Origin: Lineus longissimus
Taxonomy: Eukaryota > Nemertea > Pilidiophora > Heteronemertea > Lineidae
Assembly (NCBI RefSeq): GCF_910592395.1
Contig: NC_088311.1
Span: 11,782,501-11,846,500, forward strand
Direction: 5' to 3'
Length of the DNA: 64,000 nt
Each line of letters opens with the position of its first letter. Positions within the stretch are counted from its first letter, which is position 1. Below the pieces are notes generated by a model. That model saw only the letters and a list, made by a program, of their open reading frames with translations, had not been told where the DNA came from and searched no databases. Positions 6,101 through 41,450 of this stretch are shown piece by piece. The translations under genes were made by a program, and so were the position numbers.

Positions 6101-7288
6101 TAAAGTTCATTTTGTTAACCAACTCTTTATCTTCTTTTCTTCACATACAAAAAAGACCGTCCCAAACATTTGGCTGCATCCACTTCATCAATGTCCAGAC
6201 AACAGTCGGTTCATTTGACCATTGTAAAGCACCAGGCCCCACCTCACAAAATACACTGTAATAATTATGTACCTTGTGTCCATGTGCATGTTATTAGTTC
6301 CACCTACGCTGCATGAAGTCAAGGACTCCACTCTTTGACGTCATCACACACCCCACTACTGCAACGGCAATGGAAATGACTTTACGTCATATAGCAGGGT
6401 GACGTCAACTCAGTACTTCAGCATGCACTGATATAGCAAGAAGGTCTTCGCTCCAGCACTTCTGCGTGCTAGACGTTATAGCTTCACGTTGCCTCATAAT
6501 AACGGTACCGACACACACTTGGTCCTTGCCTTCACCTACCTATTTCAGCTGAGCGCCAGACCCTTGGGCCTCTTGTTCAAAGAAAACAAATTCCTCCTGA
6601 CAACAAAGACCAATATGTCATTCTGGAAATTAGAAAAGTGTCGTGTATAGTAGCACATAATCCCAAAGCCAGTTTTTGGTCATATGTAAATGATCGACAC
6701 TGTTTCGTTCTTCCCTATTCAGGCTATGATAAATATTATTCACTGAGTTGGAGGCGCTTTAGAATTCAAATTTAATCCTTAGCGTTGGGTGTCTATCTCC
6801 CTCAGGTGTCGCTACACAATTCCGTCAAAACCCTGCCTATGGCTCGAGATTTGGACGACTTTTAGTTCCATCCTCGAGGGTTATTGGCATCTCAACCTAG
6901 ACAATGGTGATAGATTTCCATGACGGTACTACCCATTTATGAGTAGGCCTGCTTGTACTAAGTATATCATTTTCATCAAGCAAAGATAATCTATGAAGCT
7001 ATTTTTATCTAATTAACTCTTTAGTGGTGCAACTCACTTTTATCTTGCATAAGAAGGCTTGGTAAAAGACAGAGGATAAGATTATAAATGTTTGTTGAGG
7101 TTTTTCACAAGCATGATAACCGTTAGGGGTATTTTCATGTCTCCAAATAACCGCTATATTGGGGTGCGTTGTGAAAGCAGAAAAAGCCCTCAAGGTTTTT
7201 CAAAAGCTCAAAACCCCTATTTCTTTGCTCGTTGACCTCCATCATGTTACGTTTTGACACGTCATATACGTCAATGAGCTTTACCTAC

Positions 7289-7860
7289 CTTCCCTGTACA
7301 TGCGTTCAACCTGGATTGCATTCAGAATATACGGGTAGAATAGGAAAGACGACATCTCTCCAATGAACTGGGATGGACACTTTCGGAAACGTCCTAACCT
7401 TGCCACATTATAACTCAAAATCCACCTACGTGGCCGTGGTGGTGGTCGCTTTTCAATTTTTTTCTTCACACCGTTGATAAATATTAGTTGTTTCTCCAAT
7501 TCTTGGTAAACGGCAACGACAATAAAACTCCATTCCTTTGGCCGAATAGAAAGCATGGGTGTTGTGAACCGTCTACTGAAACTCGGTAGTTTATTCAGCA
7601 CCGAATAAATACCACCAAAACGCCAGTTTTCTGCAATCCATAAGCATAACTTAAGGTATTTTTGGTGTGTGTAAAATATTATTTTAAAAGCGTCAGGCAT
7701 TAATGTTTGCGGCCGCTCATAAATAGCAGTCGAGAACGTTGCATACTTTGAGAGATCAATGGAGAGTAACCGTACATCGTGACATGGGCGGTAGAACCAT
7801 AACACGGGACTAAAATACGATGTCCACTGAACGTACTTTGCATAGTCTTTGACGGCAATT
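7289..7860 (-). CDS. Jelly-roll (LamG/pentraxin-like) exon, copy A
   Basis: This is a predicted 572-bp exon of a secreted or surface protein. What is seen: a minus-strand open frame of about 190 codons bounded by an acceptor (CCTAG at 7861-7865) and a donor (GTAGGT, 7283-7288). The peptide has the alternating strands of a concanavalin-A-like sandwich, ending with an IGEMSSFLFYPYILNA stretch and MYREG, as in the last strands of LamG or pentraxin domains. It is the paralogue of 43578-44155, with the same reading frame and splice positions. The next acceptor (TTTCCAG before 6622) would give a stop codon directly after the junction, so this looks like the penultimate exon. Upstream exons are not recognised. 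It could be a remnant rather than an active gene; the family call is from pattern only. Confidence 0.5.
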
Positions 7861-7879
7861 CTAGGTTAGGCAGGTAACT

Positions 7880-8000
7880 TTGTAGACTGGGACATTTTGC
7901 AAGCCGCTCGCCGAACTAGCATCATTTTTTGTTCTGTTTGGAGAGCACGCTTGCCGAACAGCACTGAAAATAAACCCAGTTTGGCAAGCCCGGGTTTTTA
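7880..8000. repeat. Partial copy of the GGCAAGC palindromic MITE
   Basis: The sequence carries the inverted words GCAAGCCGCTCGCCGAAC and TTGGCAAGCCCGGG and matches 46959-47110. It lies just upstream (in gene sense) of the copy A exon. Confidence 0.6.
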
Positions 8001-8317
8001 GAAAGTAGCAATAGCATTGGGATAGCATGTTGCTTATTCCTCTGATGGACATGAACGGCTGATCAGACGCCAGCCAAATCCAAGTAAACATGTCTTCTGA
8101 TTTAATTGTGTCCTGAATGTTCTGTCATTTAAACCACCCCACAGAATAAGGTGCATGGCTGCTACGCACATATCAGCCACCGGTGGCAATGAAGTCCCTC
8201 ATGGATAACCCATGTATACATTGGCAAAGTTTGCTAACTGGATCCTGCATGATTAAGTAACATTGCATTGTGCTTGTCAAAACTTACCTGATGTTCTTGT
8301 CCTTCCCATTGAGTAGG

Positions 8318-8590
8318 CTAAGTGAAATCGCTGCAAGACATTCGAAGAACGTCGTCCGTTAAACGATTAATGGCCATGATGAAAGCACGCGGAAGTACAG
8401 CCGACGCATGCCAACGGAAGATTTGAAAGAGCAATGAAATTTCACCATTTAAACTTTCAGCGGCCATCTTGGATTTCAAAATGGCCGCCGAAAATGACAC
8501 GGTTTTGCTGATATCTTAAAAATTTATCCCAGGATTATCAAGTCTGACCAATCAAATCGAACAATCGAAACCGAGGCTAGATTTTTGTGT
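8318..8590. other. Non-coding, AAATGGCCGCC-containing repeat
   Basis: Repeat-like sequence with the words GGATTTCAAAATGGCCGCCG and TATCTCGAAATC that recur near 8.73 kb and 13.7-13.9 kb. No gene seen. Confidence 0.45.
8546..8587. repeat. 42-bp direct repeat, copy 1
   Basis: Identical to 8924-8965 (starts GACCAATCAAATCGAACAAT). The pair brackets the perfect hairpin at 8600-8684. Confidence 0.85.
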
Positions 8591-12168: not shown

Positions 12169-13294
12169 TCAGACTGTTTTTTCGTCGAAGTAACCACCTT
12201 TGGCCTTGATGACTGCCCTGCAGATTCCTGGCATTCTGTTGATTAGTTTCTCCATGAAGACGGGGGTAATTTTACTCCATCCTTGCTGCAAACAGTCCCA
12301 CAGGTGCTTCTGGCTAGTTGGCTTAATTTTTCGAAGTTGTCTGTCCAATTCATCCCACAGAAGTTCAATGGGCGACAGGTCAGGGGATTGCGGTGGCCAC
12401 GACATGACTTCCATTTGTCTTGATTCTGCCAGTTGGTTCAGGTATCCTCGGCACAGCTTTGACTAATGCTTAGGATCATTGTCTTCTTGGAACACCCAAG
12501 ATCCACTGAACAGCCTCTCGGCAGATGGCACGGCGTGCTTCTGCAAGATCTCAAGATATCCTTCCTTCTTGAGAATGCCTTCTATCTTGACCAGATCCCC
12601 AACTTGATTCCCAGCAAAGCATCCCCAGACCATAACATTCCCCCCGCCATGTTTCACAGTTGGAATCACACATCCGTTTGCGAACTTTTCATTTGGCCTC
12701 CTCCGAATATAGACCCTGTGCTTTGTTTCAAACAGCTCAAATTTACCCTCGTCAGTCCAAAGAACTTTTTTCCAATCATCAACAGTCCAAAACTTGTGTT
12801 TTTTTAGCCCATTTGAGTCGTTTCACCTTGTTTTAGGGTCTCAGGAGTGGTTTTCTCACAGCAACACAACCTCGTAAACCAAAGTCAAGCAGACGTCGAC
12901 TGACCGTTTGACGCGAGATGGAGCGGTGTTGCTGTTCCAACTCATTCATCTCTTGGGCGATATCGACTGCAGTTAGGCGCCTGTCTCTCAGAGCGACGTT
13001 TCTCATGTACCTGTCTGTAGCCTTGCTAGTCTTTCTGGGCCTCCCCCTACCTTTTCTGGACTGGTTATTTCCAGCTTCCTTCTTCCTTTTCAGGATGTAA
13101 TGAACAGTTGATTTGGATACATTCACTTTTTTAGCGATTGAGCGTACTGAAAGTCCAACATCATGATAGGCACAGACTGCTGCCCTGATTTCGACACTGA
13201 TCTCTGTCTTCCTACGCATTTTGCTGTCAGTTTCACCTGCAAATGTGCCCTGGTTCTCCAAATCAGTAGACTTTATACACCCGTCATTTGTCAT
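12169..13294 (-). pseudogene. Tc1/mariner transposase, broken
   Basis: The order on the minus strand is: helix-turn-helix DNA-binding half (about 13220-12833, likely true start MRRKTEISVEI; an earlier ATG at 13294 is probably leader), then the catalytic domain with WTDEGKF (first Asp), EDNDPKH (second Asp) and PDLSPIELLW (Glu). I count 36 residues between the second Asp and the Glu, the DD36E spacing. Three lesions: a TAA at 12833-12835, one extra A in the A-run at about 12806-12812, and a TAG at 12463-12465. The total span would fit a normal length of about 340 residues. Otherwise well preserved, so inactivation looks fairly recent. Confidence 0.88.
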
Positions 13295-13479
13295 TGCCTA
13301 ATGGTCCAGAAATTGATTTCTCATGTTATGTAATACTAGGGAACCATTGGGATGACATTATACCAATGTGTATTGTCTAGAAATATTGATCATTGTTATT
13401 TTTTGAAGCCATTAATATAAAAACGAATTGGTGCAATGGTTAAAATTCTACCTTTCCTCATTATTACAGATCTGGAACT

Positions 13480-17226: not shown

Positions 17227-20200
17227 TTACGCGCCACTTTCCTCGATCAGACACATTTTCGCAATGGGTCGTTGATATTCGGAAGTAGCGATTTTCACCA
17301 GTGCCGATCGTACCATTCCATCTGCTCCTGGAAAGACCTTCATGACCCGAGCCAAAGGCCACTGGTTCCTAGTAAGATTGTCCTCTTTCAAAAGAACCAC
17401 ATCACCCTCTTGGACGTTCCTCCTTTGCTTCGACCACTTGTCTCTCTTCTGTAAGTTTGGCAAGTATTCGTACATCCATCGTTCCCAGAACAGCTCTGTC
17501 AGGTACTGCACCTTTCGCCATTCCTTCCGGAAAAGACCGTCTTGCTTAACAAATATCCCGGGTGGCAATCCAGTAATCTTCCGCTGCAGAAGGAAGTGAT
17601 TGGGAGTGAGAGGTTCACAATCACGGACGTCCTCGGATGTTGCAGTAAGAGGCCTGCTATTGAGAATGGCCTCAACTTCGGCAAACAATGTTCTCAGTCC
17701 TTCATCATTCAGGAGATTGGTCCCTGCTACAGCTTTCAAGTGCTTCTTTGTGGATTTCACCAAGCGCTCCCACACGCCCGACATATGAGCAGCTGTCGGT
17801 GGGTGAAATATCCACTTGATCCCTCGCTGCTGTAGATCCTGCTCTATCTGGCCTTGGTTCCACTCATCTATGGACGACTTTAGTTCACGGTCAGCACCGA
17901 CAAAGTTGGATCCATGATCAGAGCGTATTTCCTCGGGAGGTCCTCGTCTGCTAACAAACCGCCTCAGGACCAGAAGGAAATCGTCTGTACTCAAAGGCTG
18001 GGCAACTTCCAGGAAGACAGCTCTTGTAGTGAGGCATGTGAACAGGCACCGCCAGCGCTTTCTAGTGTCACGGCGGCCCCATTTCACGGTTAGGGGGCCA
18101 AAGAAGTCAACGCCAGGATACGTGAAGGGCGGCTTATAGGGTATAAGCCTGGTACGCGGTAGATCGGACATTACTTGCTCCATGGACCTCGCATTCAGGT
18201 AACGGCACACCCAACAATGTGAAATCAGTCTCTTAGCCAATCCACGCCCACCGAGGATCCAGTATTTCTTTCTTGTCTCTGCAACAGTTTGTTCTCTGCC
18301 ACAATGTGCTAACTTCTCATGACATCGACGGGTGATCAAAATGCTAACATGATGCTTCCTTGGCAGAATGAGAGGGTGCTTTTTATCTGATAATAAGGTA
18401 GGTGCTCGTCTCAGTCGACCACCCACTCGTAACTCTCCATTGACCAGGATCGGTCCTAGATCAGCAATCGGACTTGTGACCTTGACCTCTTTGCCCTCCT
18501 GGAGTTGGCTGATTTCCTCCGAAAAGCACTCTTGTTGGACAGACCTTACAACCAGTGATGCAGCCTGATCAAGCTCCTCTAGCTGAATGTTGCCTGTTGC
18601 ATAGGTTTTCCTTCTTAGCCTATTGCAGAATCGTACAACCCATGCTATCCTACGGAGTAAGGTTTGCCAGCTGCCAGTGTTCTTTATCACCTTTTCTAAA
18701 CTAGTCTGGGCCTGTGGTTCTCCAACAGCAAGGTGAACTTGAACCTTGGTCCGAACCTCTGGATCATCTTCTGGTAGGGCATCCACTTCTGTATGTGGCC
18801 AGCAACTTTCTGGTTCCCATAGAAAGTCAGGACCCTTCCACCAGCGATGTTCTACTGTTATCTCCTCAGGCTTCAAACCGCGGGATGCATCATCGGCCGG
18901 ATTGAAGACACCTGGACAGTGTCTCCACTCATCTGGACTGGTCAGGCTACGTATCTCCTCCACTCGGTTTGCTACATAGGTATGAAAGCGTTTTTTTTCA
19001 TTTCTGATGTACTGTAAAGTCGTCTGGGAGTCGCTCCAGAAGACAACGTAATCGATTTTCAAGGTCAGCTCTTCTTTGAGAGTACAGGAAATCCTCGCAG
19101 CAAGGACAGCAGCTTGTAACTCAAGCCTCGGAATAGAAGTTGTCTTCACCGGAGCACATCGTGACCGACCAATGACAAATGAGCAGGTCACTCCTCCTTC
19201 TCCATATGCAAATCTGAGGTAAGAGCACATCCCGTATCCCGACTCGGAAGCATCTGCAAAACTGTGTGGGGATATCTCCAGTACATTCTCACTGCTGAGA
19301 GTGTAACATCTTGGAATCTCGATTTTTACAAGACTGGACAACTCTGACAACCATCTCTCCCAAAGCAAACATTCCTGTTCCTTCAGCGGGTCATCCCAGC
19401 CCAGGTTCTGTTTCCAAAGACGCTGCATCAAGTTCTTTGCTTCTAACACCACCGGACAAACCAGTCCGATCGGATCAAACAAAGATGACAGGGTAGCCAG
19501 CACACCACGCTTGGTCATAGGTTTGTTGCGGTCAAGTACTTTGAACTAGAAGATGTCCCGCTCCACATCCCACCTTTGTCCGAGTGTCCTAGATATTGGT
19601 AGATTATCCAAATCTAGGTCAAGGGAGGGGTTCGCTCGCTCACTCTCTGGTATGCTGGCCAAAACTTCACGGTTATTGCTCATCCAGCCTGTCAGATGAA
19701 ACCCTCCTGTGGCCACCACTGAGGTCACATCCCGTCTCATCTCGATCGCCTTATCAGTGTCAGGCAATGACTGTAGGAAGTCATCCACATAACACTCTTG
19801 CTGCACTGCATCAATCGCTTCCTCAGCAAAATCGCCACGGCAGTCCTCAGCAGTCCTCTTGAGGATGTAGTTGCAACAGCTTGGGGAATCAGCTGCCCCA
19901 AAGATGTGTCTCAACATCTGATACTCAGCCGGTTCCTCATCACCACTGTTCTCCCACCATAGGTAGCGTAACTAGTCGGCATCATCTTGCTCAGAGACCT
20001 TCACCATCAAGAACATCTTCTCAATGTCTCCAACAAGCGCAACTGGTCCTTGGCGAAACCTAAGCAGTACACCCAGCAAACTGTTAGTGAGGTCAGGTCC
20101 TTGCATAAGTTGATTGTTCAATGAAACACCCTGATATTTCGCAGCCGCATCAAAGACCACACGCACCTAATTAGGCTTTTGGGGATGTGTGACACCATGG

Positions 20201-20436
20201 TGTGGTAGGTACCATGTTCTTGGTCCTCTTGTCTTAGCCTCCTCTTCAGTCAGCTTCCGAGCAAACCCTCTACTGATCAACATCTCCATGAATTTACGAT
20301 ATTTCTGTTCGTACCTTGGATCCAGGAACTTACGCTTGAGTGACTGCAGTCGTTTCTCGGCTACAGGTCTGTTATCAGGTAGCTGCACCTCCTTGTCTCG
20401 CCAAAGCATTCCGACTTCATACTGAGCACCGATCTT
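17227..20436 (-). pseudogene. pol: BEL/Pao pol: reverse transcriptase, RNase H, integrase (three in-frame TAGs)
   Basis: It continues the gag-protease frame without shift after the TAG at 20437-20439. Domains in order: connection and RT ([20 protein letters not shown] with the first catalytic Asp; YVDD at about 19785), RNase H (FADASESGYG, RLELQAAVLA, FWSDSQTT), integrase zinc finger (HHCC, about 18300-18190) and DDE core (VDFFGP, RSDHGSNF, GVWERLVKST), then a C-terminal DUF5641-like tail. Interruptions are TAG at 20167-20169, 19972-19974 and 19546-19548, all in the RT part; the last 763 codons (RNase H plus integrase) are open to a TAA at 17227-17229. No frameshift anywhere. Either a recently inactivated copy or a protein relying on amber readthrough; I favour the first but the pattern is odd. 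Confidence 0.85.
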
Positions 20437-22878
20437 CTAGGTGCTGGCCTCCATCATCTCCAAAGCCTTCCGATCTTCCACAGACATCCCCTTGGCCTGG
20501 CTGGGAACAAGACGGTTTTCATACCCAAGAAGCTGCTTCAATTGATCAAGAGTCTCATTCATCGTTTCACCAGTTTTGATAAAGTTCACATTAGTCCTGT
20601 CGTTATCACCAGACTTGCCTTGGTGTTTTCCCAAGGGCCCAAATATAGACCAACCGAGAACAGTGCGAACGGCATACGGTTCACCTTCCCTGCCAATTCT
20701 GCTCTCGAAATGCACCTGAACTTCGGGAACGTTGGTACCGATCAGCAAAGACACCTTGTCCTGATCCACACACGGCAGTGTAATCCCCTCAAGGTGGCTC
20801 CACCTGGAGATATCTGTTGGCCTCGATGTCGAAATATTCAGCGTCTCTACTACTTTAACAGGCACCTGCACGGATTCTGACCCCATCACAGCTTCCACAG
20901 TGAGTGTGGATTTTCTAACACTCATTGACGACTCACCAGTCAGTGCACATATGTTCATAGTCTCTGAACCAATACTAGGGATGTTCAGCTGATTAACCAA
21001 ACTGCTATCTACAAAGGACTCTTCACTTGCAGAGTCAAGTAGTGCGTATGTCTTGATCGTGGCTCCATCTTTACCGATTACCTTGACAGGAACAACTTGT
21101 AAGGCAATCTTAGTCGTTGGGGTGTCCGGCTTCGCATGTCCTAATGCATTGCTAGTTACATTAGTAACTGCAAAGTTCCCCGATTTGTCTGCTTTCTGCT
21201 CTGTTGCTTGTTCTTCTTCACGGGTGTGCTCAGTCTGCGGCGGTTTCTCTCTGTGCAAAAGGCTGTGGTGTTTCCCTTTGCACACCCGACATCTCTGCTC
21301 GCTGCCGCAATCACCAACACCATGATTCTTGCGCAGACAATTAAAGCACAAACCCTTTGATCGCACCAGGGCATGTCGCTGCTTCTGGCTTTTGGTCTTG
21401 AAGCTCGGACAGTTAATCAGATAATGGTCGGCGCCACAATCCCAACATTTCATCGTCCTTGACCGGTCTGCTGCAACCTGTGTCGCGAAGGTGGAGACCC
21501 CCTCCTGAGGTCTCGGTGCATTTCCCTTTTTGCTTGGGTTAGGCCTGCTGCTGTTGGTGTTTGCCTTTGGGTGTTCCCCCACAAAGCCAAACACAGGGTC
21601 GTTACTTGCTTGGGCTGCATTCTCGATGAACTCAACTATGTGTTTCAGGCCAGGGTTATCGCCCCTTTGCCGTATCCTTTCGGCCTTGTCCTGAAACTGG
21701 CCCCTCAATCGAAGGGGAAGTCTCTTCACTATTAAACTAAGATTCGACATGTTCATCTCACTCATTGCTGACAATGAATGCAAAGTTTCAAAGGTCATCC
21801 GGGCCTTGTCAGCAAAGTCTCTCAAGCCTTGCTTGTCGTTGGTCGCAATAGCTGGTCCCAGTGTCAGGGAGTCCACACAGGATTGTGAAATCATGTGTGG
21901 TCTGCCAAACCGCTGCTCCAACAGTTCAAGGGATTTCTTTAAACCCCCTGGTACACCTTCGAATCCTTTTATAGCCGTCTTAGCCTTCCCGTCCACAAAC
22001 TGGAGCAGCCTCGACATCTGTTGCTCCTCAGACAAATCGTAGGCGGTCACCATTTGTCCGAAGCGAGACCTAAACCTTAGGTACTCGCATGGCTCACCGG
22101 AGAACTTTACTACCTCCATGGGCGGAAGACTGTTCTTAATGGCAAGCCTTTCCAAGCTCTCAGCAACCTTTCCCATGTGTTGACCGATCACCGACGTTTC
22201 CATTGGACTGCTTGGTCTAGGTGTGTACGAACCACAAAGGCCACCAGGAGTAGGGCTAATGGCCGGGCAGTAGGTAATAGGAGCTCCGGGTTGCATCCCA
22301 TAACTACTTGCTGCAGGATAGTAAACTTGTCCACCAATGAGTACAGGTGTACCGCCACCAACAGGGTACACAGGTCCTGGTTCGATCACAGGTGTACCGC
22401 CACCAACAGGGTACACAGGTCCTGGTTCGACCACAGGTGTACCGCCACCAACAGGGTACACAGGTCCTGGTTCGACCACAGGTGTACCGCCACCAACAGG
22501 GTACACAGGTCCTTCTTCACCCACATCCCTACGTGGTTGTGGCCTGGAAGTGTAAGCCATCGAGTCGCCTACACCTTGTGACTGTTCACGCTCGAATACA
22601 GGGGCGTGGACCGGCGAGCCTGTAGCACATTCAGCCCCCGTCGCAAATCTCACAGTCCTACCTCCTGTTCTAGACACATCAGGTAATGTCGTGACTGTCT
22701 CTATGGGGCTTGGAAGATTCAAGACCGCGTTGGCACCTCCAGGCTGAAGATGTTCCCCTGGCGTGCTATGTCTTCTCTGTTCCAAGATCGAATCGATTTG
22801 TTCTTGAGTACTGCTGATTTCTGCTTCCAGCCATTTTATCGTCGCATCCGACAAAAGATCAAGTCCAGTACGATCCAT
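20437..22878 (-). CDS. gag: BEL/Pao gag-protease polyprotein
   Basis: 813 codons from ATG at 22878, only 19 bp inside the 5' LTR. N-terminal coiled-coil-like segment (about residues 15-40), a Pro/Gly-rich region with four 15-residue repeats (GPVYPVGGGTPVVEP, about 119-180), the DUF1759-type gag domain (about 230-430), two zinc knuckles (CWDCGADHYLINC about 476; CFNCLRKNHGVGDC about 510) plus a third CxxC...H, then a retropepsin-like protease (LLDSASEESF, about 612) of DUF1758 type. It packages element RNA and processes the polyprotein in cytoplasmic particles. It ends in TAG in the middle of a continuing frame, not at a natural C-terminus. No lesion within the 813 codons. Confidence 0.92.
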   Translation of the reverse strand: MDRTGLDLLSDATIKWLEAEISSTQEQIDSILEQRRHSTPGEHLQPGGANAVLNLPSPIETVTTLPDVSRTGGRTVRFATGAECATGSPVHAPVFEREQSQGVGDSMAYTSRPQPRRDVGEEGPVYPVGGGTPVVEPGPVYPVGGGTPVVEPGPVYPVGGGTPVIEPGPVYPVGGGTPVLIGGQVYYPAASSYGMQPGAPITYCPAISPTPGGLCGSYTPRPSSPMETSVIGQHMGKVAESLERLAIKNSLPPMEVVKFSGEPCEYLRFRSRFGQMVTAYDLSEEQQMSRLLQFVDGKAKTAIKGFEGVPGGLKKSLELLEQRFGRPHMISQSCVDSLTLGPAIATNDKQGLRDFADKARMTFETLHSLSAMSEMNMSNLSLIVKRLPLRLRGQFQDKAERIRQRGDNPGLKHIVEFIENAAQASNDPVFGFVGEHPKANTNSSRPNPSKKGNAPRPQEGVSTFATQVAADRSRTMKCWDCGADHYLINCPSFKTKSQKQRHALVRSKGLCFNCLRKNHGVGDCGSEQRCRVCKGKHHSLLHREKPPQTEHTREEEQATEQKADKSGNFAVTNVTSNALGHAKPDTPTTKIALQVVPVKVIGKDGATIKTYALLDSASEESFVDSSLVNQLNIPSIGSETMNICALTGESSMSVRKSTLTVEAVMGSESVQVPVKVVETLNISTSRPTDISRWSHLEGITLPCVDQDKVSLLIGTNVPEVQVHFESRIGREGEPYAVRTVLGWSIFGPLGKHQGKSGDNDRTNVNFIKTGETMNETLDQLKQLLGYENRLVPSQAKGMSVEDRKALEMMEAST
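22343..22520 (-). repeat. 45-bp tandem repeat in gag
   Basis: Four nearly identical 45-bp units encode 15-residue GPVYPVGGGTPVVEP repeats. The near identity suggests recent expansion. Confidence 0.93.
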
Positions 22879-22897
22879 CTTGTTGCGTTATTTGAAC

Positions 22898-30880: not shown

Positions 30881-31805
30881 TATATGACACGCAATGTAAA
30901 CAAAGACAGAGAGTTTATTATAAACCGCGAGATGCGGAATGCGAAATCGCGAGATGCAAACCTGGGTGAGAGTACCATGCGCCACAAGATGTATTGCAAA
31001 CATGGAACCTGAAAAGGCGAACATTTATGAGACTGTACTAGGGAGCTATCCTTGTTTTGATTGGCGCATTGAAACAGACTCCGCTGTGCGATGTGTGGAA
31101 TGTAACCTCATTGATAGCCTAGTTTCGATGGTCACACTATCCCGTGCTATTTCTAGGGATGACCAGACGTTCATCAAATGCATGCCCTGTGTTATCGGTC
31201 AATCGGGTGACTTGTGCCGCCAGGGGTAGGTGATAAAGCTTGGAACCAGTGAAACCTTGAAACCAGTGATAAACCTTGGAATCGGACCTAAAAATGCATA
31301 AAAACATGAAATTATGCCATTTGAACCTAAGGTGGTTAATATGAATCAATATTTGGAACTTATTTTTACATGATCAGATCGGAATTCGACGGTAGTTTAG
31401 AAATCAGTCGCATATCCGATTCAATAATCTATATTTTAGAACAATCCAGTCATACCTCGCCTCCAGTGTACATTACTGATCTTCCAAATATGGGCATGCA
31501 CGTCACGACACGCCCACAACACACCCATAATATGGACCAATCAGCGCTCCGCTTACTACGCCACCACACGGGGCCTATTTGAACTACGGAGCGGTGTGAT
31601 CATACAGGGTGATACAAAGAAGATTGACTACATCATGCAGTACCGGCTGACACTTATCCGTAGAAACGTAGATGAAGGTTTATTACCGAAGGTTTTAGCC
31701 GGGTTTGGAGATGGAAAATGTGAATAAATTCCTTCGCTGTGAGCGATTTCGTACATATTCATGTACACATCGAGGGATGTAGAGATATTTTCGTGATGTA
31801 ACCAG

Positions 31806-32209
31806 TGTGGGAGTCTCGTAATGCAACATTTAGAGTATTGAGATCTTTATAGTTTTGAACGTAGAGTATTAGTTTATAGTTTATTAGTAATAGGGGCCTA
31901 GTCTTATATCACATATAAGTTGAGTCTCAACCCTGGTTATTGTGCCCAGATCTTGTGAGGGAAATCTAACCCTTCTTGGCTTTTGTTATATATGGAAGCT
32001 ATTGTGTGTTGGGTTGGCTCTGGCCTGCTGTTATGTCATGTACATAGCCCCTTCCAAGGGAGAGGGCAGATCAAACCCAGACACGAGACAAGGAACACAC
32101 CAACGTTGAAGACCCTGATTATATGCCTAGAAGGAAGACAAGTTCTGCCACCAAGTTGTGCATCACTAAGTTGCAGAGCGCCTGAAACCAATGTGGGTAA
32201 GTTGCCACA
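31806..32209 (+). repeat. Gypsy/TatD 5' LTR
   Basis: 404 bp, TGTGGGAG...TTGCCACA (TG...CA ends). Confidence 0.95.
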
Positions 32210-32212
32210 TTT

Positions 32213-32223
32213 TGGCGACGAGG
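32213..32223 (+). other. Putative primer-binding site
   Basis: TGGCGACGAGG three bases after the 5' LTR, the expected position and a sequence common in animal Gypsy elements. The tRNA is not identified. Confidence 0.6.
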
Positions 32224-32260
32224 ATGGGATGTTGTCCATCCAGTCCACAAGAACACGTGC

Positions 32261-34108
32261 GTGGTATTCCAACCCAAGAACAACATCGAAGGGCTCCGGT
32301 TTCCCTCAGTGCTAACTAAAAACAAGCCGAAATTTTCTGTAAATGTTATCAATCTCACAGATCGGAGTATCAACATACCAAAGGGAACTTTACTAGGGGA
32401 CGTCTCGGAGGCTGATGAAATTATAGAGGATGACCCATATCTTGAACAGCTGTCGCCAGGGGGAAGTGGTGGTGCTTCTATCAATCGAACAGAGTCGGTG
32501 CCTGGAGATAAACCAGAGGAAGAAACAACAGATTGGGATGAGACACTGCCGGAACATTTGAAGGGTTTATATCAACGTTCCTGTACCGAATTGACGCCAC
32601 ATCAGAAGCAGCAGGTGGGAAAACTCCTGTTTGATTTCCAAGACATTTTCTCAAAACATGATTTAGATATTGGATGTTTTGAAGAGATCGAACACTCAAT
32701 CGATACGGGAGATCAGCGGCCAATTAAGCAGAGGATGCGGAAGACTCCGTTAGGATTTGAAAATGAGGAAGAGGGACATCTAACCAAACTTCTCGATCAT
32801 GAGATTATCGCTCCGGCGAATTCAGCCTGTTTATCACCACCAGTCCTAGTGCGGAAACGGGATGGAAAAGTGAGATACTGCCTGGATTACAGAGTCCTCA
32901 ACTCCTGCACCAAGAACGATTCATTTCCAATTCCGTCTGTGGATTTGTGCCTGGATACATTAGCAGGAAGTGAGTTCTTTAGCACTCTAGACCTCGCCTC
33001 AGGATACTACAACCTCAAAGTTAAGAAGGAGGATAGACATAAGACAGCGTTTGGGACAAAGTTCGGTAAGTTCGAACATATTCGTCTACCCTTCGGCCTT
33101 TGTAATGCACCGGCCACGTTTCAAAGAGCGATGGAGCTGATCCTGCGGGGTTTGACATGGAAGACAGTACTGGCCTACCTAGATGACATTATAGTTCTAG
33201 GAAAGACGTTTGAGGACCATATGACGAACCTCCGAGAAGTATTTGCCCGCCTGAGGAAGTACAACGTCAAGCTTAAACCTAGCAAGTGTACGCTGTTCCA
33301 GCGAGAAGTCGATTTCCTGGGGAAGAACGTCAGCTCAGAGGGTGTCAAGATCAGCCCCAAGAAGATGGACGTGATTAGGTCTTGGCCGGTACCAAAGAGC
33401 GCGAAAGAGTTAGCCACGATAGTTGGGTACGCTTGCTATCATCGGAATTTCGTCCCCCACTTTGAAGAAAGAGTGCTCCCCTTCCGGAATCTGATTGCCG
33501 ACAGCAAGAAGACGGGGGATTTCGGGTGGACCGAAGAGAAGCAACAGGCTTTCGAAGAACTCAAGGAGATCCTTTCATCGGCACCCTGCTTGGCATACCC
33601 TCTTCCACAGGGAAATTTTGTCCTTGATACAGATGCATCTAGCAACTCAATTGGAGCTGAACTCTCGCAGGTACAGGATGGGGTAGAGCGAACAGTGGCC
33701 TATGCTAGCAATGTACTGACAAAAGAGCAGCGTAACTATTGTACAACCAGGAGAGAACTGTTGGCGGTAATAAAGTTTACCCGGCAGTTTAGGCATTATC
33801 TGATAGGCCGTCCTTTCATCCTACGTACCGACCACAGTAGTTTGGCATGGCTGATGAGATTCAAGGAGCCGCAGGGGCAACTTACCCACATTGGTTTTAA
33901 TGGTCATCTACCTGGACATTTCTTGAAGTACCATGCACCATGGTTTCGAGGGGTTTCTACCTCGTGTTTCACTTGTAAAGTTCAGGAAGGAATTCCGGCG
34001 TTACTGAGAGCTCGGCACGGCTCATGTCGTAACATGACGGAGGGTGCATTTCTGTCATGGGTCTTTTCCGTGAACGCCGTGCTTGTTTTCTTTTGTGAAA
34101 ACACTTGA
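32261..34108 (+). CDS. pol: Gypsy reverse transcriptase/RNase H fused to captured sequence
   Basis: 615 codons. The start given is the alternative codon GTG; there is no in-frame ATG before about 32735, and the frame is open back to 32201, so the N-terminus is lost or depends on another mechanism. Order: end of a protease region (NIPKGTLLGD), RT (VRYCLDYRVLN, FSTLDLASGYY with Asp, FGLCNAPATFQR, YLDD at about 33178), RNase H (DTDASSNSIGAEL, RRELLAVI, LRTDHSSLAWL). After EPQGQL at about 33883 the Gypsy sequence stops and about 65 residues of unrelated sequence follow, including CFTC...HGSC, a possible zinc-binding group. It ends at TGA 34106-34108, overlapping the TatD frame by 26 bases. Confidence 0.88.
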   Translation: MVFQPKNNIEGLRFPSVLTKNKPKFSVNVINLTDRSINIPKGTLLGDVSEADEIIEDDPYLEQLSPGGSGGASINRTESVPGDKPEEETTDWDETLPEHLKGLYQRSCTELTPHQKQQVGKLLFDFQDIFSKHDLDIGCFEEIEHSIDTGDQRPIKQRMRKTPLGFENEEEGHLTKLLDHEIIAPANSACLSPPVLVRKRDGKVRYCLDYRVLNSCTKNDSFPIPSVDLCLDTLAGSEFFSTLDLASGYYNLKVKKEDRHKTAFGTKFGKFEHIRLPFGLCNAPATFQRAMELILRGLTWKTVLAYLDDIIVLGKTFEDHMTNLREVFARLRKYNVKLKPSKCTLFQREVDFLGKNVSSEGVKISPKKMDVIRSWPVPKSAKELATIVGYACYHRNFVPHFEERVLPFRNLIADSKKTGDFGWTEEKQQAFEELKEILSSAPCLAYPLPQGNFVLDTDASSNSIGAELSQVQDGVERTVAYASNVLTKEQRNYCTTRRELLAVIKFTRQFRHYLIGRPFILRTDHSSLAWLMRFKEPQGQLTHIGFNGHLPGHFLKYHAPWFRGVSTSCFTCKVQEGIPALLRARHGSCRNMTEGAFLSWVFSVNAVLVFFCENT

Positions 34109-35180
34109 GTTGGAGTCGGTAGAGGATCTGACTTTGTTGGTTAAACGGGAAGGATTTTATCCTTCAGATACGCCAGAGGGGTTTGATTTCGTCAACTCTT
34201 CGTTCTTTCTTGCAGCACAATCTATTTTGTTTGGGCAAAGATCTTCTATAACCGTTTCACCTCCATCTTGTGCCCTGGCCTTGTTATCTTGGAGGACCCT
34301 GTCGAGGCTTCTGTTGAAACTTGATGAGCGTAGGAGAGAAGAATTCAAGCATCTTCAGCTTGTACGTGCACCTGAAGATTTCCGATTCTCTCCTCCTCTC
34401 ATCGATGCACACTTTCATCTCGATCAGATGTTTCGCCGTGGTCTCTCCAAGAGCCTTGGCCAGGTTAGCTTATTTAGTTCAGGGGTAACTAACTACGCGT
34501 ACGAATCGAGTTGGAAGTTTCTACCCAGACACTTGGAAGAGTTTCCAAGTATGTGTTTTTCAGTGGGTGTGCATCCCAGGTTTGCCTCGGTTAGTTCGAA
34601 GCCATTCAGTCAATATTTGTCTGACAAGCGGTGTGTCGCCATTGGCGAAGTCGGTGTCGATTTCAGTGGTGGGTGTGAGTGTGGCGGGGACCGGCTTTGT
34701 TCTGCGTTGGATTGTGTCCGGGATCGTCAGGTCAGCTATCTCCGCACTGTCCTTCCGTTAGCAGTGGCTAAGAAGAAAGCGGTGATCATTCACTGTCGCG
34801 ACGGCGGAGGTCAGGCAGCCACCCCTGAAGTGATTGGTGTTTTCCGTACGCTGAAATTGACTGGTCTCCGTGTACATATCCACTGTTTCAATGGCACGCA
34901 CTCGGAGCTTGCGGATTGGTTGGGGCTTGGCCCGAACATTTATATAGGCATCGGCCCATTGGTTACTTCGGGCGCCTATTTCCGAAGTGTACTGCGTGAT
35001 GTACCCTTGACCCGTTTTGTTTTGGAGACGGATTCTCCGTATCTCCTGGGCGGGGTCTTCTTTAAGGAGAAGTTTGAACAGGTTGCAAGATGGGCATCGT
35101 CCCTGTTTAGGTTACCTATTCCGGTCCTGCTTCAAATGAATGCTAGGAACTTTGGTCTTGTGTATAACATTAAGCTGTAG
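34083..35180 (+). CDS. TatD-family metal-dependent nuclease carried by the LTR element
   Basis: Metal-dependent hydrolase of the TatD DNase family (TIM barrel; 3'-5' exonuclease or DNA repair roles in known members). Residues seen: LIDAHFHLD (HxH, residues 106-114), IGEVGVDF (Glu), AVIIHCRDG (His), VHIHCFNGT (His), LETDSPYL (Asp); all six expected metal ligands are present, and length after the first motif (about 260) fits a full domain. About 105 residues precede it. The first ATG lies after the HxH motif (34428), so translation must start upstream: the frame opens at 34074 and is joined to the RT frame if one T is skipped in the T-run at 34085-34093. No stop or frameshift within 365 codons. 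Stop TAG at 35178. It occupies the integrase position. Confidence 0.9.
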   Translation: MFSFVKTLELESVEDLTLLVKREGFYPSDTPEGFDFVNSSFFLAAQSILFGQRSSITVSPPSCALALLSWRTLSRLLLKLDERRREEFKHLQLVRAPEDFRFSPPLIDAHFHLDQMFRRGLSKSLGQVSLFSSGVTNYAYESSWKFLPRHLEEFPSMCFSVGVHPRFASVSSKPFSQYLSDKRCVAIGEVGVDFSGGCECGGDRLCSALDCVRDRQVSYLRTVLPLAVAKKKAVIIHCRDGGGQAATPEVIGVFRTLKLTGLRVHIHCFNGTHSELADWLGLGPNIYIGIGPLVTSGAYFRSVLRDVPLTRFVLETDSPYLLGGVFFKEKFEQVARWASSLFRLPIPVLLQMNARNFGLVYNIKL

Positions 35181-35742
35181 TGACGTTGCCTTTTTTGGCG
35201 GGGGGAGGGGGTATGTGATTGTTGGGTGTTGTGACGTGATCGTTGCATTAGCCTTAGCTGTGACAGTGTGAGCGGATCGCTGATCGCTGGTTTATTTATT
35301 TATTTTCGTCACAGTTCTTGGTTATGCTACTTCGATTAAGTTGTTTAGTATTTACCTATGTGTTAATTGAACCTTACAGGAAGAGGGTAATTTGTCACTT
35401 TCGTTTTCTGGGTCATCTCTTGTTAGTGTGGTGTGTGTTAGCTTGTTCATTTTCATAACTTTGAGTAGGTTATTACCAGCTCAGTTTTGTTGATGGCCAG
35501 GTTATTATCATGCCAATTACTCTATGTTACCTCCTGTAGTGTTAAGCTACTCTGTGACAAACTTCCTGTTCGGCCGTGTTATTTGTATACCAGTTACTGA
35601 GGGGTGCACACCTTCTGCTTGGTTCACTGCGTTGGACCGCCTTAAGTTGTCGTATTATGTATATTCTGTATTTTGCATGTCTTGTAAAATATTGTGTTCA
35701 GTTACTAAGAGGTTGGGACACTCTTTTTAGGTGGGAGGGGAA
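35181..35742 (+). other. 3' non-coding region and polypurine tract of the Gypsy/TatD element
   Basis: T/G-rich sequence without a gene. The purine run AGGTGGGAGGGGAA at 35729-35742 directly precedes the 3' LTR, as needed for plus-strand priming. Confidence 0.8.
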
Positions 35743-36146
35743 TGTGGGAGTCTCGCAATGCAACATTTAGAGTATTGAGATCTTTATAGTTTTGAAAGTA
35801 GAGTATTAGTTTATAGTTTATTAGTAATAGGGGCCCAGTCTTATATCACATATAAGTTGAGTCTCAACCCTGGTTATTGTGCCCAGATCTTGTGAGGGAA
35901 ATCTAACCCTTCTTGGCTTTTGTTATATATGGAAGCTATTGTGTGTTGGGTTGGCTCTGGCCTGCTGTTATGTCATGTACATAGCCCCTTCCAAGGGAGA
36001 GGGCAGATCAAACCCAGACACGAGACAAGGAACACACCAACGTTGAAAACCCTGATTATATGCCTAGAAGGAAGACAAGTTCTGCCACCAAGTTGTGCAT
36101 CACTAAGTTGCAGAGCGCCTGAAACCAATGTGGGTAAGTTGCCACA
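35743..36146 (+). repeat. Gypsy/TatD 3' LTR
   Basis: 404 bp, four differences from 31806-32209; followed by target copy CCAG. Confidence 0.95.
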
Positions 36147-36636
36147 CCAGTTCTAAGCGGACACATTTTTTAGTGATTCCCGTGTGCATGTTTGTCATAT
36201 CTACTGAGCTTTATCAGAGCATTATATATACAAATGATTCTTCCAATAAAAACGTTTTACTTTAGTATATGGAATACAAAACAATCACAAAAGCTTACTT
36301 TTGCTTTCATCGAAGAGCAATAATTAGATATTTGCAAATGGCGGCCCGTCATGAATATAAGTTTATTTTTTAACGACAACTACACATTTCCAATGCATTC
36401 AATGATGACGTCATCCTCCACAAAAAGGTTGATTCTGGAACTACTGGCAAATTGCTATCAATAAAGTCAGCTGGGACGAGATTGGCAGTTGGGAGGGTAT
36501 AAATCGTGGAAGGAACGCGCCCGATTTCACGCGGTACTTGCACAGTGATTCCACGGTTTAGTACTGACTATTCCAAGGTTTATCACTGGTTACATGGTTT
36601 CACTGATTCCAAGCTTTATCAACTACCGCCGCCAGG

Positions 36637-38700
36637 CGTAACGGGAAAAAAAATCTTGATACAGCATACAGAACCTTGTGGTATTAGGCTCACAGTATGT
36701 CTTGATAAGTTGGAAAAGCCTTTGTGGTCAAGATGAACATGCACTTGCATGTAGCCTTTGTATTGTCTTCGGCCCTTTATACTATCAATGAATGGAGAAG
36801 TGGACAGCAGCATCAGAAATAGTGATTGTCATTGTCCAGGGAAGTTGAAAATCTTGTGGAAGGAAATAATGATTACTCATCTCGCGATTTCTCATCTCGC
36901 GATTTATAATAAGCCTGACCACACCCAACCCCGGATTCATCGATTAAAACACGTTTTGTTTTAAAAGTAAGAGAAATATTTCGTCAAGTATCGCGCGTCG
37001 ATATCCTGGAAAATAAATGCGTCTCTCACTAATTGCTTAAATTCTGAAGTTAAGTGCATCTTCATTTTTACTAATTTTGATTGACATCCGTGGTGCCCCG
37101 AGTAGGCCTGTGCTCATGCATGCAGTACAATCCACCATGCTGAACATTCTCACAAAATCTTTGTGGGGGGGAACACAACATTAAAATGCAAAATGTATGT
37201 TCTGTTCTGTTTAACGCCATCACCACGTCGTCGTGTAGACATCGGCACTGTTTTATTGGAATTAATGTCGTGCCGTAATAACATGGGGTTAATACACAGG
37301 ATACAAGAATCAAGATTTGTACTACTCGTATAGGTCGAACCAAGAATAGAAAAATAAGGACATTACCCCATGTCTAAGGCGGGAATAAGTTTTTATTGAT
37401 AAATCTAAGGAGTTTCGAGGACCCCAAATCGTTTGTAAGGTTCAAGGAATACTGGCCTTTCATTGGTGCCCGTTTACCACTTATTTACATATTCTCATCT
37501 AAAAAAATATGACAATATTTACGATCATGTGGTAGATAAGATATTTTACCTTCATTTTACAACATTCATCAATAACGCACCCTTGCGGATGTCTAAGCCT
37601 GCTACATGAAGCTGTCAGAAAAATGCCTCGTCAGTAATTTCGCCAGCGGATTTCCGAATAAGGTGTACACGGTTTTCGATCGCTGGACTCTAAGAGAGGA
37701 GGATGGAATATGATTTTATGTTTGATGAAAACTTTACTTGTTTCCAAGCCCCCCCCCCCCCCCAAAAAAAAAATTCTCACAAGAATAAGAAACTGCCCGG
37801 CTTAGTTTTTACTTCGCTTTGCGGAAACTAAAACTAATAAAGCTTACCTCAATTTTTCAGGGGCAAGGCTGGCTAAGAAAAGTTATTAGGCTAGTTTACA
37901 GCCTCCATGATAACACAGTGTACCTAACCCTTGGCCTTACACATTTCCAATTCTCATCCCAGTCTGATACACTGTGGATATCGTCTTCCATCTCCGCTAC
38001 AACTCTCAATGCACTGTTATTTATCAACCATGACTTGTTTAGTAAGGTATTCATAGCTCGATGAACTGGTCGATGTTGCTAGGGTGACGATGTGACATTT
38101 TCTACTAATGTAGATCGGCTGTGCTATGTCATGTATGTGGTTTCATATAATCAGGCAAACTTAAATCGGCCTGTTTCGATCACATGTGCCTCATCAGTAG
38201 TACTTAGTAACAGGAAGATTCCAATTTACTATTACCAAGTTCTGAAGAGGGCATACTTTTATTTATTATCATTATCAGACATCCCAAGATTCAAAATTCA
38301 AATGCTTCATTTTTAACCAAAAGACGAAATGTGAAGGTGCGGCAAATGCCGTGTTTTGCTAAGCTGCCTTCTCCAGCCAGAAACAAATTCAGCTACTTTG
38401 AAATGATGCTGGCATGAATAATACACGCGGAATGTTTGATCGGTGTTCAGTGCGGATGTGTCTAAATTACCTCCTGCTGGAGCCAGGCCATTTTGACCAT
38501 TTCGGATCCCTTCTGTCCATTGTGGCCCGTATTGCCACATACAATCGAGTGTGAAGGAAATACGCACAAATTGGGACATCTCCTTAGTATTTCTTTTTAA
38601 AGCAAAAGGTTGGTCGACGATGTCATTATACACTGGAAAGAATGAAGAATCTATGCTGGACCTGCCTCTACACTTATCTATTCACAGCACCGTCCTCCAA
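36637..38700. other. Non-coding stretch
   Basis: No gene seen. A C-run followed by an A-run lies at about 37750-37772. TCTCGCGATTTATAATAA near 36894-36911 is inverse to 30911-30955. Short frames (37071-37343, 37819-38064, 38313-38633) show no domain. Confidence 0.45.
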
Positions 38701-40531: not shown

Positions 40532-41450
40532 TTAAGTCAATTCTTCGTCCAAATCTACAAATTCTAGACCATTGTCTTCGATTTCAATGTTATTAAACAT
40601 CATCTTTCTCCCATCCCTTGTCATCCCTAAAGTTACGGTACATCTTAGTTTCGGATTCCCTCGGGACGTGCGAAGATCAATTTGTTTTGCCCCCTTTTCA
40701 TTGTATTGTATTGTATTGTATTGTGGCGCCATGTCAAAAAGAGCAAACGTTTCATTCATGTTTATCACAAGTTCAATCCCATTTTCATCAACTGTCTGGG
40801 TAACATTTTGCTGAAAATTGGCCACAAGTTCATCCGCGTTTTCGGGAATAGCCATAAATTTTTTGCATTGTTTCCTAAAACTAATCCCGTTCCTAGAGAG
40901 AAAACCAGTTAGCCACCCTCTGGACGCCCTGAAGTTTGTTAATTGTGGCCGATGCTGCCGGTATTCCTGCTGCTGCTGTTCGGAAAGCACTGCCCACCAT
41001 GTTCGGAAAGACTGTTCAGCTTTAATCATCATATCGTCACCAGAGACAGGTACCACATGTTGTCGCCTTGTTGCCATCCATTCACGAACTGACCTGTCAA
41101 CCTCTGGCCATAAGGCTGAAAAAAATGTGGACTTTAGAAAAGAACAATTTCAAATCTAAAGTTCCAGGTTCTCATGGACATCAAATTTGAAAAGAAAATG
41201 ACATGGAAGATGGCGTTAATTTTCTGTTAAAAGTAAATTACAGCACTCACCAATGCCTCTTTGTCTTTGTCTGCGCCTGTTGACCTGCCTGCTCGTAGTT
41301 TCGCGATGTCTCTCTCGGAGGTCATCCTCAGTCTTCGCGGAGCCATCGGCGCATAGTCGCGGAGGGGATGTTATACTCCCTGGCAAACTGGGGCGGTGAA
41401 ATCCCATGAGGCTGCCTGATGTTTTCGTTTTCATAGTCATCGAGCAGACG
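40532..41450 (-). pseudogene. Truncated pogo-like transposase, two exons
   Basis: Exon 1 (about 41450-41250) encodes a helix-turn-helix of the CENP-B/psq type (PPQFAREYNIPSATMRRWLRE), with a frame disturbance after it (TGA in one frame, continuation in another). An intron runs from GTGAGT (about 41249) to TTTTTTTCAG (about 41117). Exon 2 (to 40532) has the second DNA-binding helix set (FPEV-like start LWPEVDRSVREW, ASRGWLTGFLSRNGIS) and the beginning of the DDE domain. The first catalytic Asp is replaced: INMNETF where pogo proteins have NMDET. The protein then ends after about 75 more residues in an acidic tail, so the second Asp and the last acidic residue are gone. It cannot cut DNA but might still bind it. 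Confidence 0.75.
40703..40727. repeat. ATTGT pentanucleotide repeat
   Basis: Five units of TATTG inside the truncated transposase frame, giving a QYNTIQYN run. Confidence 0.9.

Follow-up and report, generated by a model that had tools for sequence, protein, structure and literature searches.

Within a 64,000-nucleotide stretch of the Lineus longissimus genome (contig NC_088311.1, positions 11,782,501 to 11,846,500, hereafter the window), we analyzed a long terminal repeat (LTR) retrotransposon at 31806..36146 that carries a TatD nuclease domain downstream of its reverse transcriptase (RT). Its two 404-bp LTRs, aligned at 31806-32209 (5′) and 35743-36146 (3′) on the plus strand and bounded by TG...CA, show exactly 4 mismatches, and the target site duplication CCAG on the left (31802-31805) equals that on the right (36147-36150). 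The 5′ LTR is followed by a primer-binding-site-like sequence, TTGGCGACGAGGAT (32212-32225, plus strand), which also stands behind the 5′ LTR in three lineage E elements (see below) and is thus common to lineages A and E, while a polypurine tract, AGGTGGGAGGGGAA (35729-35742, plus strand), precedes the 3′ LTR and is identical in a sibling copy, L016. The window was also searched for tRNAs, without a match. The Gypsy linker, the RT and a truncated RNase H occupy 32229-33875 (plus strand) in the open reading frame (ORF) 32201-34108, which matches RVT_1 (7.5e-32) and RT_RNaseH_2 (3e-32) in Pfam and has the Ty3 RT as its best PDB match (3.6e-78). Paired TG..CA LTRs, a short target duplication and a Gypsy-type RT/RNase H are thus all present, as a sequence-only reading of this locus had described, including the young age of the element, the four LTR differences and the primer-site-like and polypurine sequences.

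That reading did not remark on a 22-nt exact inverted copy of LTR nucleotides 380-401, located on the minus strand at the junction of RNase H and TatD (33876-33897). Behind it, all on the plus strand, lie the second part of a zinc-finger region belonging to a third ORF of the element group, ORF3 (33898-34085, in the RT frame, aligned to the protein P0001 and to L016), the ORF3 helical linker region (34086-34397, in a frame that differs from the sibling copy), the TatD domain (34398-35180, with its stop at 35180) and a 3′ untranslated region shared with L016 (35181-35728). Absent from the window copy are gag, protease, the end of RNase H, integrase and the start of the zinc finger.

The TatD open frame (34074-35180) matches PF01026 at 3.7e-31, its AlphaFold model has a mean predicted local distance difference test (pLDDT) score of 84.6, and the top Foldseek matches are TatD/YcfH-type enzymes (2.4e-13 and 2.9e-13). 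Residues H113, H115, E192, H240, H270 and D320, which we take to be the metal ligands, show no or almost no variation across an alignment of 20 rows; their codons start at 34410, 34416, 34647, 34791, 34881 and 35031 on the plus strand. The fold and the metal-ligand motif are those of cellular TatD proteins (Escherichia coli YcfH/TatD, human TATDN1 and TATDN3), but identity is 19-23% in the 12 best Foldseek matches, and the PDB sequence matches start at query residue 106 or later, leaving the zinc-finger and helical parts uncovered. The domain had been called complete and intact, which holds for the domain, its fold and its six ligands, but not for the protein. The first methionine of the frame comes only after the HxH motif (string index 118), and the second part of the zinc finger, in the RT frame, is followed by a frame change relative to the sibling. 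Given the lost start of the zinc finger, the lack of a usable start codon and this frame change, the window TatD cannot be expressed by the ordinary route, and the window copy probably makes no TatD. A programmed frameshift that would connect the RT frame with TatD was also considered; however, the sibling reads this region in one frame, and we took the change as private decay.

A sibling copy and five TatD lineages

The sibling lies on another contig (C5:18.09-18.11 Mb). Its pol is 98.4% identical at the DNA level to window 32229-33887 (L021:543-2201) and is followed by an integrase broken by nested insertions, by an ORF3 with a complete zinc finger and TatD, and by a 3′ LTR, while gag zinc knuckles and a macrodomain are found upstream (L038). 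TatD and the 3′ region differ from the window by 1.4% outside gaps, and the 3′ LTR, of the same family as the window LTR, by 4.2% outside gaps; the sibling TatD (L016) carries frame breaks of its own. The gag, macrodomain and protease that the sibling has are missing from the window copy before 32229. The window RNase H follows the sibling up to the scar at ~33876, and TatD follows it again from ~33898. Since the sibling has the same pol together with integrase and TatD, we read the window copy as a deletion derivative.

We then searched the 391-Mb, 30-contig assembly with the Pfam TatD model and obtained at least 27 rows, of which 16 rows at 13 loci belong to zinc finger (ZnF)-TatD lineages A-E, 4 are TATDN2-like and 7 are uncharacterised. 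Lineage A comprises the window and C5:18.1 Mb; lineage B, C15:0.64 Mb; lineage C, C6, C17:1.49 and C14; lineage D, C11:6.1 and C5:13.85; and lineage E, C17:1.79, C15:3.1, C10, C2 and C13. Boundaries were set for the window element and for five LTR-paired elements of other lineages, each holding TatD between its own LTRs: three of lineage E (C15, 97.4% over 304 bp; C10, 99.0% over 306 bp; C2, 98.7% over 303 bp), one of lineage C (C6, 96.6% over 322 bp) and one of lineage B (C15, minus strand, 92.1% over 369 alignment columns). All five have a complete or partial integrase upstream of TatD and four also have RT; the full set of RT, integrase and TatD between LTRs is found in three (C10, C2, where the integrase is in pieces, and lineage B). 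The lineage E elements are flanked on both sides by 4-bp target duplications, GAAG (C15), ATGG (C10) and GGAC (C2), and these three distinct duplications indicate three independent insertions of TatD-containing elements.

Integrase matches in Pfam (H2C2, rve) were obtained in L021, L009, L018, L015 and L026, with TatD behind them, and integrase follows RNase H in L021, L018, L015/L031 and L026. Zinc knuckles are found in L038 and L031; L031 and L025 have an aspartic protease match that passes the cut-off. Integrase is again followed by TatD in lineage D (C5:13.85), where a nested Gypsy element with 430-bp ends matching at 99.5% splits TatD. The TatD had been proposed to stand in place of integrase and to have been acquired recently. 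Neither proposal finds support: integrase has been deleted in the window copy, and both the sibling, which shares its pol, and four further lineages have integrase followed by TatD. That TatD moves with the element, on the other hand, was borne out. It is therefore highly probable that the window holds a non-autonomous element derived by deletion from a Ty3/Gypsy group with the order LTR, gag (followed in some by a macrodomain), protease, RT, RNase H, integrase, ORF3 (zinc finger, helical linker, TatD) and LTR.

Another internal deletion that keeps TatD was seen in lineage E (C15, L014:5113-5526), where RNase H is missing its end and integrase its first half, roughly the same region as in the window copy. 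Around the window element, inverted arms at 30915-31283 and 36570-36912 (58 nt at 93% and 26 nt at 88%) were noticed, and the element may lie within an older palindromic or terminal inverted repeat-type repeat. Elsewhere in the window, we found a BEL/Pao element at 17227-22887 on the minus strand (Pao peptidase 4e-49, DUF1759, DUF5641 and an integrase zinc-binding domain) and minus-strand fragments of Tc1/Tc3-like (12833-13297) and Tc5-like (40532-41149) transposase DNA-binding domains. The four TATDN2-like rows are at C12:8.5, C5:16.4 and, for two of them, C3:16.77. In L020 (C12:8528500-8538400), L032 (C3) and L002 (C5), the TATDN2-like ORF comes directly after a 1017-aa ORF without a Pfam match that looks transposase-like by eye, in a unit that recurs on three contigs, most of its pieces matching at ~95-99%, and that may be a second, different mobile element carrying TatD.

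ORF3 across lineages and species

In lineages A, B and C and in the proteins P0001, P0025 and P0027, ORF3 consists of an acidic stretch, a basic stretch (e.g., KKRRMRSRNKK in L016, resembling a nuclear localization signal by eye), a CxxC...H...H...C..C finger, a helical linker and TatD. The lineage E ORF3 (L014) starts almost directly at the finger, and its second Cys pair is absent. In lineage C, the integrase open frame ends 475 nt (L009) and 476 nt (L011) before the ORF3 ATG. The L009 ORF3 is a naturally open frame of 455 codons (7138-8502), and its model has a mean pLDDT of 87.5. The TatD fold and ligands are kept across lineages at ~35% identity. ORF3 is thus an enzyme ORF between integrase and the 3′ LTR, present in several copies with its catalytic residues kept. 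No DEDDy or GDSL enzyme was found in the ORF3s of L009, L015, L014 and L013, in which TatD is the only Pfam match above cut-off.

The macrodomain (PF01661, cut-off 22 bits) is present in the lineage A sibling (L038, 6.4e-33, 113.6 bits) and in lineage B (L031, 5.7e-36, 123.5 bits), in both between gag and protease. Near a lineage D TatD, L013 shows a weaker macro match of 19.0 bits, below the cut-off, which resembles the TARG1 type. None was seen in the scanned stretches of lineages C and E; one set of macrodomain queries also missed the L013 match, so that other macro types could escape notice. The L013 locus itself (C11, minus strand) has a gag-like ORF, the macro-like domain and TatD, with only ~0.5 kb between the latter two, and is perhaps another, pol-less derivative.

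To follow the history of ORF3 and pol, we compared trees of RT, integrase and TatD. The RT tree has the form ((D,(B,A)),E), with support of 97/96 for A, B and D and of 90/93 for A and B, and sets the seven TatD-bearing rows apart from three same-locus Gypsy elements that were not seen with TatD (89/89). The integrase tree groups A, B and C (86/91). The larger TatD tree reads (D,(C,(B,(P0001,A)))), with support of 100/97, 95/92, 92/89 and 94/89, and places E outside with P0002 (91/95). Where resolved, the three trees show the same order, which fits a long co-inheritance of ORF3 with pol; E may have acquired its TatD separately.

Constraint was assessed from the dN/dS ratio (omega), with p values for six comparisons only; as the copies share ancestry, these tests are not independent. 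TatD of the window and sibling gave a pooled omega of 0.32 (7 and 7 changes, Fisher p 0.051), and two lineage E pairs gave 0.33 (L014/L018, p 0.0006) and 0.37 (L033/L018, p 0.002). Over all pairs of lineage E, TatD omega was 0.62 for L014/L033, 0.32 for L014/L018, 0.41 for L014/L019, 0.35 for L033/L018, 0.38 for L033/L019 and 0.58 for L018/L019. For comparison, RT omega was 0.27 for window/L021 (p 0.001), 0.97 for L018/L019 (p 1.0) and 0.62 for L014/L018, and integrase omega was 0.59 for L009/L011. The comparison across TatD copies that had been suggested for this locus gives low values in lineage E and no clear constraint in lineages C and D, whose values are given below.

A profile search returned 78 proteins at E<=1e-10, including entries from Mytilus, Dreissena, Mercenaria, Saccostrea and Ruditapes. 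One of them, a Mytilus coruscus “tatD” (P0030), starts with a Gypsy integrase C terminus (46% over 133 aa to L009) and continues into ZnF-TatD (29% over 493 columns to L015). Among the eight proteins with this type of integrase end, the query included, two have TatD (P0030 and P0108) and the other six have integrase zinc-binding, core or RNase H domains; P0102, 95% identical to P0030 over the integrase end, has integrase zinc-binding and core domains. The junction of an integrase end with TatD in Mytilus shows that the pairing is not private to the source genome. We also considered a viral source: the window TatD had no DNA-level match in viral_contigs, alignment A2 matched 7 loci there at 23-29% identity, and the one BFVD match below E 0.001, a Yasminevirus protein (1.3e-10), is too distant to say more. 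Separately, “TatD family hydrolase” entries from Thiodiazotropha and Sedimenticola metagenome-assembled genomes (P0044, P0054, P0062, P0067, P0075) match the animal ZnF-TatD family, and our guess is that they are host contamination of symbiont assemblies. A figure legend on the giant squid Hox cluster lists TATDN2, ZMYM1 and POGK among non-Hox genes (PMC6962438), which are possibly element ORFs.

Origin and possible role of TatD

Based on these data, the ORF3 TatD looks like a third gene in the env position that is an old part of the element group, rather than a one-off theft. Several observations weigh against this reading. A TatD-less element, n_L017, stands beside D and E in the integrase tree, unresolved and on a long branch; the larger TatD tree came with a program warning of long branches meeting at E and P0003, and an earlier TatD tree with fewer sequences had poor resolution. 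TatD omega shows no clear constraint in lineage C (L009/L011, 0.83, p 0.56) or lineage D (L013/L017, 0.75). Several TatD copies are frame-broken, including the window copy and L016, and L014 is without the first ligand histidine. As for the elements, no RT was found in that of C6, which has integrase and TatD; the lineage E element on C15, with RT and the second half of integrase, is without the first half; and the pol of the same element was not shown for L013, L035 and L036. Finally, the second copy that had been called for, with TatD between LTRs of the same family, was obtained in part: the sibling TatD lies beside a same-family 3′ LTR, but nested insertions are present and no 5′ LTR turned up in the sequence fetched.

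We had started from the hypothesis of host capture, in which a host TatD mRNA would have been joined to a Gypsy element by template switching, recently and once, replacing integrase. The scar at the junction, with its 22-nt inverted LTR end, does resemble a template switch; we nonetheless abandoned the hypothesis when TatD turned up behind integrase, first in L009/L011 and later in L016/L021. The sibling on another contig with the same pol, integrase and TatD refutes it, barring a separate origin of the sibling TatD and LTR, between which and pol nested insertions intervene, and four other lineages also have TatD after integrase, so that we regard such a capture as hardly credible. TatD might instead be an old and stable hitchhiker of no benefit to the element. 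The unconstrained copies of lineages C and D and the frame-broken copies would fit this idea, as would the extra ORFs of bdelloid elements, for which the available part of PMC5408684 reports no significant departure from neutrality in intragenomic evolution; but a fold and ligands kept at ~35% identity, omega of 0.32-0.62 in six lineage E pairs (with p values for two), the congruent trees and the presence in mussels make it unlikely. Service to the host, or a truce between host and element, with ORF3 for example trimming element RNA as a self-limiting nuclease or being an exapted host copy, is very improbable in our view: fish germ cells that lose TATDN2 have more R-loops and more DNA damage, according to the portion of PMC12709183 available, and such a nuclease could thus be tolerated or used by the host, but no domesticated single-copy descendant was recognized among the loci fetched, a weak argument as these cover 20 of the 27 TatD rows.

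If the window copy derives by deletion from a group with an old ORF3, the loss would have come about through template switching during reverse transcription, minus-strand strong-stop DNA or a similar molecule serving as the template for the 22-nt inverted LTR end. During minus-strand synthesis, RT would leave the ORF3 RNA, copy the end of minus-strand LTR DNA for 22 nt and then resume on the RNase H RNA at a match of a few bases. Full-length relatives would supply the proteins for reverse transcription of the RNA of the deleted element and for its integration, in line with the earlier suggestion of a non-autonomous, trans-mobilized element.

As to what TatD does, the suggestion that it is of use to the element stands as a possibility. 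TatD enzymes, among them E. coli TatD and the human TATDNs, are described as 3′-5′ exonucleases on single-stranded DNA and RNA and as apurinic/apyrimidinic endonucleases, and TATDN2 as resolving R-loops, in the accessible part of PMC12709183. By analogy, we tentatively propose that ORF3 might be made env-like from its own start codon ~0.5 kb past integrase (a distance measured in lineage C), and might be an accessory 3′-5′ nuclease acting on single-stranded element DNA or RNA or RNA-DNA hybrids (ends of complementary DNA, R-loops), or against a host nucleic-acid defence. More speculatively, and with considerable doubt, the macrodomain (ADP-ribose-hydrolase-like, made with Gag-Pol) and a nuclear ZnF-TatD could form a counter-defence kit that together would reverse ADP-ribosylation and clear the trapped RNA-DNA hybrids or guide nucleic acids used by animal cells against reverse-transcribing elements, its modules kept or swapped since before the split of the lineages found in the source genome and in mussels.

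Relation to known elements

The closest known kind are the Juno/Vesta LTR retrotransposons of bdelloid rotifers, which have a 3′-5′ exonuclease-type ORF3 past pol, in some with a Zn-binding Cys-His-Cys motif, and of an ORF type common to several element classes (PMC5408684, in part). The enzyme there is DEDDy and RNase D-like, whereas here it is TatD with a C2H2-like finger; 3′-end processing is discussed in that study, and the words TatD and macro are absent from the part of its text available. Orchid Ty3/Gypsy elements likewise have an additional enzyme ORF, for an AlkB N6-methyladenosine demethylase, that is fixed in a lineage of Gypsy elements, but the enzyme is another one, the hosts are plants and the available passage of PMC9289625 terms the acquisition recent. 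Epsilon-like endogenous retroviruses of fish share with the present elements a macro domain ORF in a retroelement, but they are retroviruses, and TatD is absent from the passage concerned (PMC4977317). Accessory domains known from LTR elements include the chromodomain and a DnaQ-like exonuclease (excerpt of PMC6338049), and the portion of PMC8220671 available contains no TatD or macro domain. By titles and the starts of abstracts in the open-access literature, no paper on TatD/TATDN2 in an LTR element was found, and a corresponding search for macro domains in Gypsy/LTR retrotransposons gave only the fish retrovirus review. TatD is thus a new enzyme in an already known slot, the enzymatic ORF3 of LTR retrotransposons.

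The window copy illustrates how a non-autonomous derivative originates, with a template-switch-like scar at its junction. For annotation, some multi-copy mollusc “tatD/TATDN2” genes may be retrotransposon ORF3s. Extra enzymes fixed in a retrotransposon lineage hint at steps of the life cycle, or at host defences, beyond those served by the standard enzymes, and with TatD kept beside integrase in several lineages and in mussels, an action of TatD on the intermediates of reverse transcription becomes testable.

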